From Pusillimonas sp. TS35 (lineage in GTDB: Bacteria > Pseudomonadota > Gammaproteobacteria > Burkholderiales > Burkholderiaceae_B), in the NCBI RefSeq assembly GCF_009857885.1, contig NZ_WWER01000001.1, forward strand, positions 310,001 to 374,000: a DNA stretch of 64,000 bases. Reading direction: 5' to 3'. The notes beneath the pieces are model-generated. The model was not told the origin of the DNA, did not search any database, and saw only the letters and a list, made by a program, of their open reading frames with translations. The position numbers and the translations under genes are program-made. Of this stretch, positions 34,420-63,536 are shown in pieces (position 1 is the first letter of the stretch; every line of letters begins with the position of its first letter).

Positions 34420-35527
34420 CACAGAGTCTTACAACGCCGGCACGGCCGAACTGCAGGCGCAGCTCAAGCCGCTGCGCGACCGCATCGATACAATCGACGA
34501 GCAGATTCTCGACCTGCTGAACCAGCGCGCCAACACCGCGCTCGAAGTCGGCAAGGTCAAAGAATCCTTCGACGTCGATGGGCCTATCCTCAAGCCCGAG
34601 CGCGAGGCTATGATCATCCGCCGTCTGCAGGCGCTCAATCCGGGCCCATTCACCGCCGAAGCGGTCGACGCGGTCTGGTCGCAGATCATTTCCACCTGTC
34701 GCGGCCTGGAGAGCGCGCTCACGGTGGCTTTCCTGGGGCCTCAGGGTTCGTTTTCCGAGCAGGCCGCACTCGAGCATTTCGGCCACGCCATCACGCGACT
34801 GCGCTGCGATTCATTCGACGAGGTCTTTCGCGCCGTCGAGGCCGGCCAGGCCGATGTCGGTATGGTGCCGGTCGAAAACTCGACCGAGGGTGCCGTCAAC
34901 CGCACGCTGGACCTGCTGCTCAATACCTCGCTCAAGGTGCTGGCCGAGCGTTCGCTCAACATTCATCACAACTTGCTCACCAAGTCGGGCACGCTCGAAG
35001 GCGTAACGCGTGTGATGGCGCATCCGCAAGCGCTGGCGCAGTGCCAGGCTTGGCTTACTCAACATGTGCCACATCTGGTGCGTGATGCCGCATCCAGTAA
35101 TGGCGAGGCTGCCCGCATCGCGGCGCAAGACCCAACCGTTGCGGCGATCGCTGGTGATACTGCCGCGATTGCCTGGGAGCTGGGCATTGTGGCGGCGGGC
35201 ATCCAGGACGATCCGCAGAACCGCACGCGTTTCCTGGCGGTTGGCGCCATCGAAACCCTGCCCACCGGCAACGACAAGACCAGCATTATTCTTGCCGTTC
35301 CCAATCGCGCGGGCGCCGTATACGATATGCTGGCGCCGTTGGCGGCCAATGGCGTGTCCATGACGCGGCTCGAATCGCGCCCGGCCCGCACCGGGGCGTG
35401 GGAGTACTACTTTTATGTCGATCTGCTGGGTCATCGCAGCGAACCCGCCGTGGCGCGGGCGCTGGCTCAGCTCAAGCAACAGGTTGCCTTCTTCAAGGTG
35501 CTGGGCTCGTATCCCCAGCAGCAGTAA
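34412..35527 (+). CDS. pheA: Bifunctional chorismate mutase / prephenate dehydratase
   Basis: The protein has 371 residues. An AroQ chorismate mutase domain (about 15-100; [18 protein letters not shown]) is followed by the prephenate dehydratase domain (about 105-285; [28 protein letters not shown]). A C-terminal ACT domain contains [20 protein letters not shown], the phenylalanine feedback site. It catalyses chorismate to phenylpyruvate. Confidence 0.97.
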
Positions 35528-35574
35528 TCGCAACAGTAATAGCAATCGCCGTTTACGATTTCAGGGCACAACGT

Positions 35575-36711
35575 ATGACTTCCGCTGTCAATAGCGCTTC
35601 CCGGGCCGCGCTGGTGCCCGACTACATTCTGGGCATTGCGCCATACCAGGCCGGCAAGCCTATTGAAGAACTCGCACGCGAGTTCGGGCTCGACCCCGCC
35701 GCCATTGTCAAGCTCGCCTCCAACGAGAATCCGCTTGGCTTTCCCGCATCCGCGCAGGCGGCGATGTTGGCCGCCGCAGCGACGCTGGCGCGTTACCCGG
35801 ACGCCAATGGCTTCGACCTGAAGGCTGCGTTGTCCGCGCGCTATGACGTGCCGGCCGACTGGATCACGCTGGGCAATGGCTCCAACGACCTGCTCGAGAT
35901 CATTTCGCTGGCACTGCTGCACCCCGGGGCAGACTGTGTCTATGCGCAGTATTCTTTCGCGGTCTACCGCCTGGCTACCCAGGCGCGCGGCGCGCGGCAC
36001 GTCGTGGTGCCTGCCCGCGACTACGGCCACGATCTGGATGCCATGTTCGATGCGATCACGCCCGATACCCGGCTGGTGTTCATCGCCAATCCCAACAACC
36101 CTACGGGCACCTTTGTGCCGCATGCGGACGTTGCCCGTTTCCTGCAGCGCATGTACGACACACACGGCGAGCGCGTCACGGTGGTGCTGGACGAAGCCTA
36201 TACGGAGTATCTCGACCCGGCATTGCGTTTCGACAGCGCCGCATGGGTGCGCCGCTATCCAAACCTCATCGTAACCCGCACATTCTCGAAGGCCTATGGG
36301 CTGGCGGGGTTGCGCGTGGGGTATGCGCTGGCACAGCCGCGCCTTACCGATCTGCTCAATCGGGTACGCCAGCCGTTCAATGTCAACACGCTGGCTCAGG
36401 CCGCCGCTATTGCTGTACTGGGTGATGCACCCTTCCTGCAGCGTGCCTACGAGGTCAACAAGGCCGGCAAGCAAGCGCTCACTGACGCATTTGCTCGGCT
36501 GGGCCTGCAGTATGTGCCCAGCTACGGCAATTTCGTGCTGGTCAAGGTGGGCGATGCGGCGGCCATCAATATGGCCCTGCTCAAGCGCGGCGTCATCGTG
36601 CGTCCGGTGACGGGCGACGGCCTGCCCGAGTGGCTGCGCGTATCTATTGGGCTGCCGGAGGAAAACGCGCGCTTCATCGAGGCGTTGACCGAAATTCTCA
36701 AGCCGACATGA
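35575..36711 (+). CDS. hisC: Histidinol-phosphate / aromatic aminotransferase
   Basis: The protein has 378 residues from the ATG at 35575; the upstream extension overlaps pheA and is rejected. It is a fold type I PLP enzyme with ASNENPLGFP, the LDEAYTEY aspartate region, and lysine 239 in TFSKAYGLAGLRVGYA. The family annotation is histidinol-phosphate aminotransferase. Its place between pheA and tyrA suggests it also or mainly transaminates phenylpyruvate and hydroxyphenylpyruvate. Confidence 0.92.
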   Translation: MTSAVNSASRAALVPDYILGIAPYQAGKPIEELAREFGLDPAAIVKLASNENPLGFPASAQAAMLAAAATLARYPDANGFDLKAALSARYDVPADWITLGNGSNDLLEIISLALLHPGADCVYAQYSFAVYRLATQARGARHVVVPARDYGHDLDAMFDAITPDTRLVFIANPNNPTGTFVPHADVARFLQRMYDTHGERVTVVLDEAYTEYLDPALRFDSAAWVRRYPNLIVTRTFSKAYGLAGLRVGYALAQPRLTDLLNRVRQPFNVNTLAQAAAIAVLGDAPFLQRAYEVNKAGKQALTDAFARLGLQYVPSYGNFVLVKVGDAAAINMALLKRGVIVRPVTGDGLPEWLRVSIGLPEENARFIEALTEILKPT

Positions 36712-61477: not shown

Positions 61478-62119
61478 ATGACTACATTGCGTCTGGGCGA
61501 TACCGCCCCTGATTTCGAGCAGGATTCCTCGGTCGGCAAGATCCGTTTTTATGACTACCTCGGCGATAGCTGGGGGGTGCTGTTTTCGCATCCGGCCGAT
61601 TTCACACCCGTTTGCACGACAGAGCTGGGCTACACGGCACTGGTGTCGGGCGAGTTTGCCAAGCGCAACGCCAAGGTGATCGCCGTGTCTGTGGACGACG
61701 CCGAATCGCACCGTAAATGGATCGGGGACATTAATGACACGCAGAAATGCGAGGTCAATTATCCGATCCTGGCGGATGCGGATCACAAGGTCGCCAAGCT
61801 GTACGACATGATCCACCCCAATGCCAGTACCACCGTGACGGTGCGCTCGGTGTTTATCATCGACCCAAAGAAGAAAGTCCGTCTGATCATCACCTATCCG
61901 GCCAGCACCGGCCGCAATTTCGATGAAATCCTGCGAGTGCTCGACTCGCTGCAACTGACCGATAACTATAGTGTTGCGACGCCGGTTAACTGGAAGCAGG
62001 GCGATGATGTCATCATTGTTCCGTCGCTGCAGGACGAAGCCGTGCTGAAGCAAAAATTCCCCAAAGGCTACACGGTAGTGCGCCCTTACCTGCGCATCAC
62101 GCCGCAGCCCGATAAATAA
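61478..62119 (+). CDS. Peroxiredoxin, Prx6 (1-Cys) family
   Basis: The protein has 213 residues. The peroxidatic Cys46 lies in HPADFTPVCTTELG, and a second cysteine at 91 sits in NDTQKCEVNYPI, as in mammalian Prx6. The C-terminal domain ends VVRPYLRITPQP, typical of 1-Cys members. It reduces hydrogen peroxide and organic peroxides. It is monocistronic, with an intrinsic terminator downstream. Confidence 0.95.
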   Translation: MTTLRLGDTAPDFEQDSSVGKIRFYDYLGDSWGVLFSHPADFTPVCTTELGYTALVSGEFAKRNAKVIAVSVDDAESHRKWIGDINDTQKCEVNYPILADADHKVAKLYDMIHPNASTTVTVRSVFIIDPKKKVRLIITYPASTGRNFDEILRVLDSLQLTDNYSVATPVNWKQGDDVIIVPSLQDEAVLKQKFPKGYTVVRPYLRITPQPDK

Positions 62120-62199: not shown

Positions 62200-62656
62200 G
62201 TTGGCTGCCGACCCGGCGGCGCCTGAAGTAGGGCTCCCACAGCATCACCCGCGAGCGGCCACGTAAGAGGTAGGCTGTCCGGCCCCCCAGCAGCATTCCA
62301 TGCGCGGTGGCCGATGCTCCGTTGAGTCCCTCCACCCCAGCGCCTCCAGTGTTGCATCACTGACGGCGCGAGCCAACTATACAAGTTCCGTTGGCCCGCA
62401 GGGGCAAAAGGGCGAGTTCGCACACGCCGCTGAAAGCGCGTGAATTTGACGGGAACCCCGAAGGGGAGAGCGATCGAAGCGACCAGCCTGCCCCGCCACG
62501 ACGCGCCCCGGCCAAAGAGCCCAGATCTTCCGCCAGCAAAACAACCCCCGCCTAAAAACCCCCAGATCGCCGCACGTACAACCCCCCGGTGAGCAGCCCA
62601 ATACCCCCAGGCACAACTCCACCCCCAAACAACACACAAAAAAAGCTTGCAAATAA
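62200..62656. other. GC-rich region without a recognisable gene
   Basis: About 450 bases between the peroxiredoxin terminator and the SOS-box promoter. Long minus-strand frames (such as 62097-62639) exist only because the sequence is GC-rich; their products are rich in Arg, Gly and Trp and have no ribosome-binding site. I see no RNA gene or mobile element. Confidence 0.4.
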
Positions 62657-62694
62657 AACTGATGTTTTATACAGTACTGTATATAGAGTCAGTA
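62657..62694 (+). promoter_or_regulatory. Two adjoining LexA (SOS) boxes
   Basis: Two sites fit the CTG-N10-CAG LexA pattern. Box 1 (62657-62676) reads AACTGATGTTTTATACAGTA; box 2 (62675-62694) reads TACTGTATATAGAGTCAGTA. They share two bases, and the join forms a 14-base palindrome at 62669-62682. A TTGCAA at 62647 and a TACAGT 17 bases later could be the promoter they cover. They lie 28 bases before the small ATG at 62723. Confidence 0.75.
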
Positions 62695-62722
62695 TCCATA
62701 TAACCAGCAAACGAGGCAAGCC

Positions 62723-62902
62723 ATGCAAAACTCCACCTTTCCCCGTCGTCCCGCAGCAAAATGGCCATTTCCCGCCCGCCGCGCGCCAGCCCGGCAAAGC
62801 AAATTGTCGCGGGGCGCCATGCTGGTCGACGTTTGCCTGGTGCTTGCCTGGGGCGCTACCATCCCAGGCATGATGTGGCTGGGCGTCGCCGGCGGGTTCT
62901 GA
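62723..62902 (+). CDS. Small SOS-controlled predicted membrane peptide, 59 residues
   Basis: This frame was found by reading downstream of the LexA boxes. The ATG at 62723 has GAGG six bases upstream and the frame ends in TGA at 62902. The first half is strongly basic and proline-rich (MQNSTFPRRPAAKWPFPARR). The second half is one hydrophobic segment (MLVDVCLVLAWGATIPGMMW) ending LGVAGGF. I do not recognise the family. The form (short, basic plus one helix, SOS promoter) resembles SOS membrane toxins such as TisB or small division inhibitors, but this is inference. Confidence 0.65.
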   Translation: MQNSTFPRRPAAKWPFPARRAPARQSKLSRGAMLVDVCLVLAWGATIPGMMWLGVAGGF

Positions 62903-62950
62903 ATTGCTCGCTCCGCTGTCTCGGCCAGCCCTTCGGAGCGTCATCGGCAT

Positions 62951-62978
62951 AAGCGCCGCTGCAAAAAAGCGCCGCTGC
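62951..62978. repeat. Short tandem direct repeat
   Basis: The 12-base unit AAGCGCCGCTGC occurs at 62951-62962 and 62967-62978, after the SOS peptide gene. Its role is unknown. Confidence 0.5.
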
Positions 62979-63051
62979 TATGACTGCCACGCCAAAAACA
63001 CGCCCTAACAACGTGTGGGGCAAGCGGCTTTTCTAGATGCCCAATTGCTTG

Positions 63052-63057
63052 TACAAT
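63052..63057 (+). promoter_or_regulatory. Predicted -10 element of the rplS promoter
   Basis: TACAAT is preceded at 16 bases by TTTCTA and lies about 100 bases before the rplS start. It suggests that rplS has its own promoter here. Confidence 0.4.
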
Positions 63058-63155
63058 AGCAGGCTTTGCTAACTCATCCTCTGACGGCTTGCGTTGCGCG
63101 TTTGGCGCTCCTTCAATAAAAAAGCCTGCTCAAGATGAACTCTGGAGTCACTACC

Positions 63156-63536
63156 GTGAATCTGCTCGAAACCCTCGAACAAGAGGAAATCGCCCGTCTG
63201 ACCGAAGGCAAAACCATGCCCGAATTCGCGCCCGGCGATACCGTCATCGTCAATGTGAACGTGGTCGAAGGCACCCGCAAGCGCGTACAGGCCTACGAAG
63301 GCGTCGTCATTGCCAAGCGCAACCGTGGCCTGAACTCTGCCTTCATCGTGCGCAAAATCTCGTCCGGCGAAGCCGTCGAGCGTACGTTCCAGCTTTACTC
63401 ACCGCAAATCGCCAGCGTCGAAGTCAAGCGTCGTGGTGACGTTCGCCGTGCTAAACTGTATTATCTGCGTAGCCGCTCGGGTAAAGCCGCACGCATCAAG
63501 GAAAAGCTCGTCCGCAAGGCGGACAAGGCTGCATAA
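63156..63536 (+). CDS. rplS: 50S ribosomal protein L19
   Basis: The protein has 126 residues. The GTG at 63156 is chosen because L19 proteins start [15 protein letters not shown] and GGAG lies nine bases upstream; an ATG at 63135 would add seven residues. It carries [20 protein letters not shown] and the strongly conserved [21 protein letters not shown]19 sits at the 30S-50S interface. It is not preceded by trmD, which is unusual. Confidence 0.96.

Follow-up and report, generated by a model that had tools for sequence, protein, structure and literature searches.

What is the function of a gene for a 59-residue peptide that follows two closely spaced LexA boxes in the genome of Pusillimonas sp. 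TS35? The locus lies close to the end of a 64,000-nucleotide stretch of DNA, referred to here as the window, and all features are given in window coordinates on the forward strand. The comparative sequence evidence presented below provides good support for the assignment of the gene to the LexA (SOS) regulon. As to the function, we give an even chance to the possibility that the peptide is an SOS division inhibitor acting in the manner of SidA from Caulobacter, an assignment made by analogy.

The peptide gene is positioned between two longer genes. The upstream neighbor (61478–62119) encodes a 213-residue protein, which we take to be a peroxiredoxin because of its motif PADFTPVCTTE, and the downstream neighbor (63135–63536) is, judging from its sequence, presumably rplS, the gene of ribosomal protein L19. 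Both are present in the list of open reading frames, as is the peptide gene, which occupies positions 62723–62902 including the stop codon, begins with an ATG at 62723, and is supported as a gene by homology and by its pN/pS values. It is preceded by two CTG-N10-CAG boxes, box 1 (CTGATGTTTTATACAG) at 62659–62674 and box 2 (CTGTATATAGAGTCAG) at 62677–62692. A preliminary description of this DNA had reported two such boxes, nearly abutting, ahead of a short frame with a ribosome-binding site. The boxes and the frame are present, the boxes do nearly abut, and the ribosome-binding site is the sequence GAGG at 62713–62716, six nucleotides 5′ of the ATG, identified from the sequence and from the pre-ATG sequences of 30 loci; however, the gap between box 2 and the ATG is 30 bases instead of the 28 reported.

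The bare CTG-N10-CAG pattern is uninformative in the window, where it has 20 matches against 21.6 expected, and the pattern CTGT-N8-ACAG has no match in the window. The boxes were scored with a 20-bp LexA weight matrix derived from 13 training sites in the promoter regions of lexA and of PA0069-type radical SAM genes from other genomes. Two of the 13 sites, those of the radical SAM genes at L065 and L092, also belong to the 58 named loci described below, and the link of the training site L105 to its radical SAM gene, at a distance of about 300 bp, is less sure. In agreement with the earlier reading of the two elements as LexA boxes, box 2 (20.1 bits) and box 1 (18.0 bits) are the best and second-best matrix sites in the 64 kb. 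Among 120 sequences simulated with a first-order Markov model, sites scoring at least as high as box 1 occurred at a frequency of 0.008 per 64 kb, no site reached the score of box 2, and none of the sequences contained a pair of sites with box-level scores 15–40 bp apart. Each of the boxes in the window has one imperfect half-site, and their scores are lower than those of most boxes of the relatives. The third-best matrix site in the window (14.1 bits) is the second of two CTG-N10-CAG 16-mers 17 bp apart at 35917–35949; it is located inside an aminotransferase-like coding frame (35398–36711) and is therefore probably a chance occurrence.

The genome of Pusillimonas sp. TS35 contains one LexA match, at G000:C25. 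Its lexA gene is preceded, just 5′ of the start, by the sequence CTGTATATAAATACAG (25.7 bits), so it is very likely that the LexA of this organism reads the motif. The gene of the PA0069-family radical SAM protein in the same genome (L108, G000:C19:332347–333405) is located away from the peptide gene and has a LexA box of its own, CTGTTTATTTGATCAG. A perfect 20-bp LexA palindrome, TACTGTATAAAAATACAGTA (33.7 bits), is found at G000:C18:346605–346624 (L175) with a methyltransferase-like frame nearby, and it is the sole mismatch-free match in this genome.

A pattern-driven scan provided 58 named loci of the peptide family, among which the motif frequencies are partly a product of the way the set was constructed. 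The loci are from Pusillimonas, Pollutimonas, Candidimonas, Allopusillimonas, Alcaligenes, Castellaniella, Achromobacter, Bordetella, Yanghanlia, and other genera; many are from congeners, and two are from the single genome of Yanghanlia caeni, which has two copies of the peptide gene (L069 and L075), each on its own contig and each with LexA sites. Four of the genera were confirmed as members of the Alcaligenaceae by taxonomy look-up; we assume the same placement for the remaining ones, and one MAG is labeled no more narrowly than Burkholderiaceae bacterium. The reading frame is under purifying constraint in the 29 of the 58 loci that could be arranged into six groups, with mean pN/pS values of 0.05–0.18 over the C-terminal 34 codons. 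Four neighbors were tested in flanks of up to 2,500 bp: an rplS motif is present downstream in 50 of the 58 loci, a peroxiredoxin motif upstream in 28, and cysN together with a radical SAM gene upstream in 14.

Conservation of the boxes extends to nearly the entire set. LexA sites are present in 57 of the 58 loci, 43 of them directly in front of the peptide gene and 14 in front of a radical SAM gene, compared with none of the 58 control regions, which comprised 440 bp downstream of each locus. Within 500 bp 5′ of the stop codon, 40 loci have at least two sites, three have one, and 15 have none. Fourteen of the last group have a site further upstream; the exception is L063, located at a contig end, where the sequence begins only 124 bp before the match. 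The first two sites are spaced by 31–34 bp in 19 loci, by 24–28 bp in 12, by 18 bp, as in the window, in six, and by other distances in three.

The 14 loci with the site further upstream are from Achromobacter and Bordetella. Here, the peptide gene is located behind a radical SAM gene that has a LexA site at its start; the radical SAM motif is present in all 14, and the proteins of the peptide family are long, with 107–170 residues. The one radical SAM gene that was scanned belongs to the PA0069 family (NF033668, 470.9 bits versus a cut-off of 360). According to excerpts of a comparative study from 2012 (PMC3323433), splB, a spore-photoproduct-lyase-like gene, is a predicted LexA target in alpha- and beta-proteobacteria. 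The PA0069 family may be identical to this splB.

The preliminary description had proposed conservation of the frame in the Alcaligenaceae as a check, and its outcome was positive. In 200 genomes of the same bacterial family, a protein search produced matches in 173 at the loose threshold of E ≤ 1, and a profile restricted to the C-terminal 36 columns detected the peptide in 159 genomes at E ≤ 0.1 and in 145 at E ≤ 0.001, the latter number being the 159 minus 14 above 0.001 as counted from the results table. A broader profile revealed weak copies in g5, g22, g23, and g31; copies are also present in g12 and g40. The nine divergent members from distant genera of the family (E ≤ 0.026) that were scanned all have an upstream LexA site. 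By contrast, such a site is present in none of the ten weaker in-family matches and none of the 17 out-of-family matches scanned, the latter out of 24; L149 and L150 from within the family and L034 from outside it were too short to scan. The out-of-family matches to the short profile were rejected as chance, since none of the 17 has a LexA site, and several are recurrent frames of 35–55 residues with unrelated shared sequence. No convincing outsider emerged when two overlapping sets of genomes from the order, numbering 200 and 250, were searched. Because the matches outside the family and the weaker ones inside it do not have the LexA sites of the members at E ≤ 0.026, the peptide appears to be confined to its own bacterial family at this sensitivity.

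LexA itself was found in 188 of the 200 genomes. Both LexA and the peptide are absent from the nine reduced genomes of g8 and g39, and among the three other genomes with no detected LexA, two (G065 and G194, which are 82% and 78% complete, respectively) have the peptide. LexA is present and no peptide was detected in g13, g14, g34, and g43, and likewise in parts of g5, g22, and g23. Since these include several LexA-bearing genera with no detected copy, either another factor may take its place there or its role may be dispensable. In one g5 genome, the peptide gene (L111/L153 and L172; G137:C4 near 970107–970201) is preceded by double LexA boxes and matches in two separate parts that lie in different frames, and therefore looks frameshifted or mis-sequenced.

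The promoter of the peptide gene was read by eye as TTGCAA (62647–62652) and, after a spacer of 17 bp, TACAGT (62670–62675). These −35-like and −10-like hexamers have eight of twelve consensus matches, which is under the cut-off of the promoter scan. However, a TTGC or TTGA positioned exactly 12 bp 5′ of the CTG of the first site is retained in 41 of the 43 relatives with direct sites, and this fixed distance supports the proposed promoter. The −10-like hexamer is the right half of box 1, and box 2 probably lies over the transcription start expected from this promoter. The scan of positions 62500–63140 on both strands did not report any promoter-like site; because it also misses the proposed sense promoter, it says little about a possible antisense RNA.

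The product of the gene is predicted to be a small protein with a single transmembrane segment. The preliminary description of a basic half followed by one hydrophobic segment agrees with the hydropathy and with the AF2 model, in which helices at residues 30–44 and 46–56 are interrupted just before a conserved Ile-Pro pair; the confidence of the model is modest (mean pLDDT 64.7, pTM 0.30). The C-terminal helix region extends from D36 to F59 (62828–62899) and has the pattern D-x6-W-x3-IP...GGF, assigned from the AF2 model and from conservation. The tail following the last Lys or Arg is 29 residues long in 28 of the 30 nearest relatives and 32 residues long in two, with the copy from the window included. 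The most conserved positions are D36, V40, W43, I47, P48, L53, and G58. Along the helix, conservation has its peak near 100 degrees; six tests covering three ranges gave uncorrected permutation p values of 0.011–0.041. The N-terminal part varies among relatives, and it is basic in the nearest 30. It contains the motif KWPFP (residues 13–17, 62759–62773), recognized by its conservation in the relatives: [KRN]WPF is present in 41 of the 58 loci, and residues K13–F16 are nearly invariant (at least 90%) among the nearest 30. Because the positive charges are N-terminal, the N-terminus is predicted to be inside the cell, and the conservation of one helix face suggests a membrane protein partner. The peptide had been noted as unrecognized, and it remains so in Pfam and NCBIfam, in which no family, SulA models included, matches the window peptide at E ≤ 10.

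From these features we infer a transcription start, a membrane topology, a partner, and a block of division, as follows. LexA bound to box 1 would cover the −10 element of the only recognizable promoter, and binding at box 2 would cover the expected start, so the gene would be off in undamaged cells. The double boxes had been thought to indicate tight repression of a harmful product, which they may do. When DNA damage removes LexA, the small protein would be made. Its one proline-kinked C-terminal helix would insert into the membrane with the basic N-terminus in the cytoplasm and the C-terminus at the outer face, and the conserved helix face formed by D36, V40, W43, and I47 would dock on a membrane partner. 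The partner may be a component of the late division machinery (FtsW/FtsI/FtsN), in which case septum synthesis would be halted until repair is finished, as with Caulobacter SidA. The step involving the division machinery is drawn from the analogy to SidA and YneA and from the lack of a convincing SulA.

SidA of Caulobacter crescentus is an SOS-induced inner membrane protein of 29 residues whose target is FtsW, as stated in excerpts of PMC4211646. The peptide resembles SidA in being under LexA control, very short, and equipped with one membrane helix. The two are likened by layout, and they differ in that the N-terminal part of the peptide, in which a KWPFP-like motif is frequent, has about 30 residues, a number that exceeds 100 in some Achromobacter. 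YneA of Bacillus, SosA of Staphylococcus, and ChiZ of Mycobacterium are likewise SOS-induced proteins with a single transmembrane segment that are thought to target the septal synthase; YneA binds transmembrane segment 7 of FtsW through its transmembrane helix, and a similar binding has been predicted for SidA, SosA, and ChiZ, not with high confidence (excerpts of PMC13396833). Unlike YneA and ChiZ, whose LysM domain lies outside the membrane, the 59-residue peptide ends at the membrane with the residues GGF.

The role proposed for the peptide, arrest of division in the SOS response, is that of SulA in Escherichia coli. However, SulA disrupts the polymerization of FtsZ (excerpts of PMC4211646), whereas the peptide is a predicted membrane protein and is not matched by the SulA model. 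Among control genomes, the SulA model matches E. coli only, and there is no convincing match in the 200 family genomes either, of which ten match weakly, one of them above the cut-off. Three of the matching proteins were checked, including the one above the cut-off. All three are encoded beside lexA and are ImuA of the translesion cassette, with two above the ImuA cut-off and one below it. A complementary distribution of SulA and the peptide, considered initially because SulA matches came from genera that lack the peptide, was dropped, since three of the ten SulA-matching proteins proved to be ImuA. An ImuA-like protein encoded directly after lexA in a genus with no detected peptide (L097, 1258–2190) has a long C-terminal extension, in which PWPF followed by basic residues recalls the KWPFP motif.

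The reading of the peptide as a small SOS division inhibitor, one of two offered in the preliminary description, provides the best fit; it is unproven and has no homology to a known inhibitor behind it. A rather unlikely alternative, in which the peptide would have no direct effect on division, is that it is an SOS-induced adaptor for another membrane protein, such as a protease, a transporter, or an enzyme of respiration or of the cell wall. The conserved helix face and the [KRN]WPF motif point to a protein partner without naming one, which suits an adaptor, as does the position behind a radical SAM gene in Achromobacter and Bordetella. However, no membrane protein recurs as a neighbor among the four neighbors tested (rplS, peroxiredoxin, cysN, and radical SAM).

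The other reading in the preliminary description, a toxin laid out like tisB, fared worse. A peptide of the TisB or DinQ type would dissipate the proton motive force and slow or kill the damaged cell, favoring dormancy. The peptide shares with such toxins its SOS control and its layout, in which a basic part accompanies one hydrophobic helix, and DinQ of E. coli is a LexA-controlled single-transmembrane peptide that depolarizes the membrane (excerpts of PMC3567139). The acidic residue of the helix could enable oligomerization, which would equally suit a channel-forming toxin. TisB and DinQ are LexA-controlled single-helix peptides whose synthesis is also controlled by antisense RNA and mRNA processing, as described in the same excerpts of PMC3567139. 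By contrast, the peptide locus has no Rfam match, a result still compatible with an antisense RNA, and its leader folds no better than shuffled versions. The stretch between box and ATG is 9–138 nucleotides long across 41 cases, with a median of 53, and in the longest ones there is room for control by the leader. Therefore, the case against a type I toxin is based on the absence of leader structure and not on length. Among 41 leaders, 40 from relatives and one from the window, with loci that have no direct sites and four loci with no ATG leaving at least 50 residues excluded, a single one folds more than two standard deviations better than its shuffled versions, and the value for the window is z = +1.2. 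Furthermore, the position-specific conservation along one face of the helix speaks against a toxin, as does the single syntenic place in the chromosome across genera. A TisB-type toxin is thus less likely than a SidA-like inhibitor, and we regard it as improbable.

The small size, the one helix, and the SOS control would also be compatible with a product of a prophage or mobile element, for example a small holin. This origin is very improbable, as the gene has a fixed chromosomal site, the 15 stretches in viral contigs that fit the pattern include no confirmed relative, and the matches in PHROGs are weak (best E of 0.014), each in one or two of 30 members; PADLOC gave no match for 30 members. 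That the peptide is a chance open frame, of the kind expected for a short frame in a G+C-rich region, behind a LexA site serving something else, can practically be dismissed, because the frame is recovered across genera with low pN/pS values in all six groups.

As a kind, the peptide seems to be an SOS-induced small membrane protein, and as a protein family it seems to be undescribed. Among the matches listed in searches of the open-access literature, which leaves most subscription journals outside its scope, none concerns this peptide or any division inhibitor of the SOS response in the Alcaligenaceae, and the excerpts of a study of small RNAs in Bordetella (PMC3110155) contain nothing on the peptide. 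The uncharacterized beta-proteobacterial genes hypA and hypB resemble the peptide gene in having predicted LexA sites; however, according to excerpts of PMC3323433, hypA is from multi-chromosome species only and hypB from Burkholderia only, a comparison made by description. A further-reaching interpretation, to which we assign somewhat less than an even chance, is that the undescribed family supplies the effector of the SOS checkpoint in the Alcaligenaceae, in the form of a tail-anchored protein with a single helix that inhibits synthesis of the septal wall and has an origin separate from those of SidA, YneA, and SulA. It would be connected to LexA in two ways, either through a promoter of its own, in most cases with two operators, or as the second gene behind an SOS-controlled radical SAM gene.

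To our knowledge, there is no description of damage-induced division arrest in Bordetella, Achromobacter, Alcaligenes, and their kin. The widespread unnamed SOS membrane protein is one candidate gene for the question of how division is arrested in the Alcaligenaceae. If FtsW is its target, the peptide would add one more independent lineage to the small membrane peptides that reach the septal synthase, and the conserved face of its helix would show where to look for the contact.
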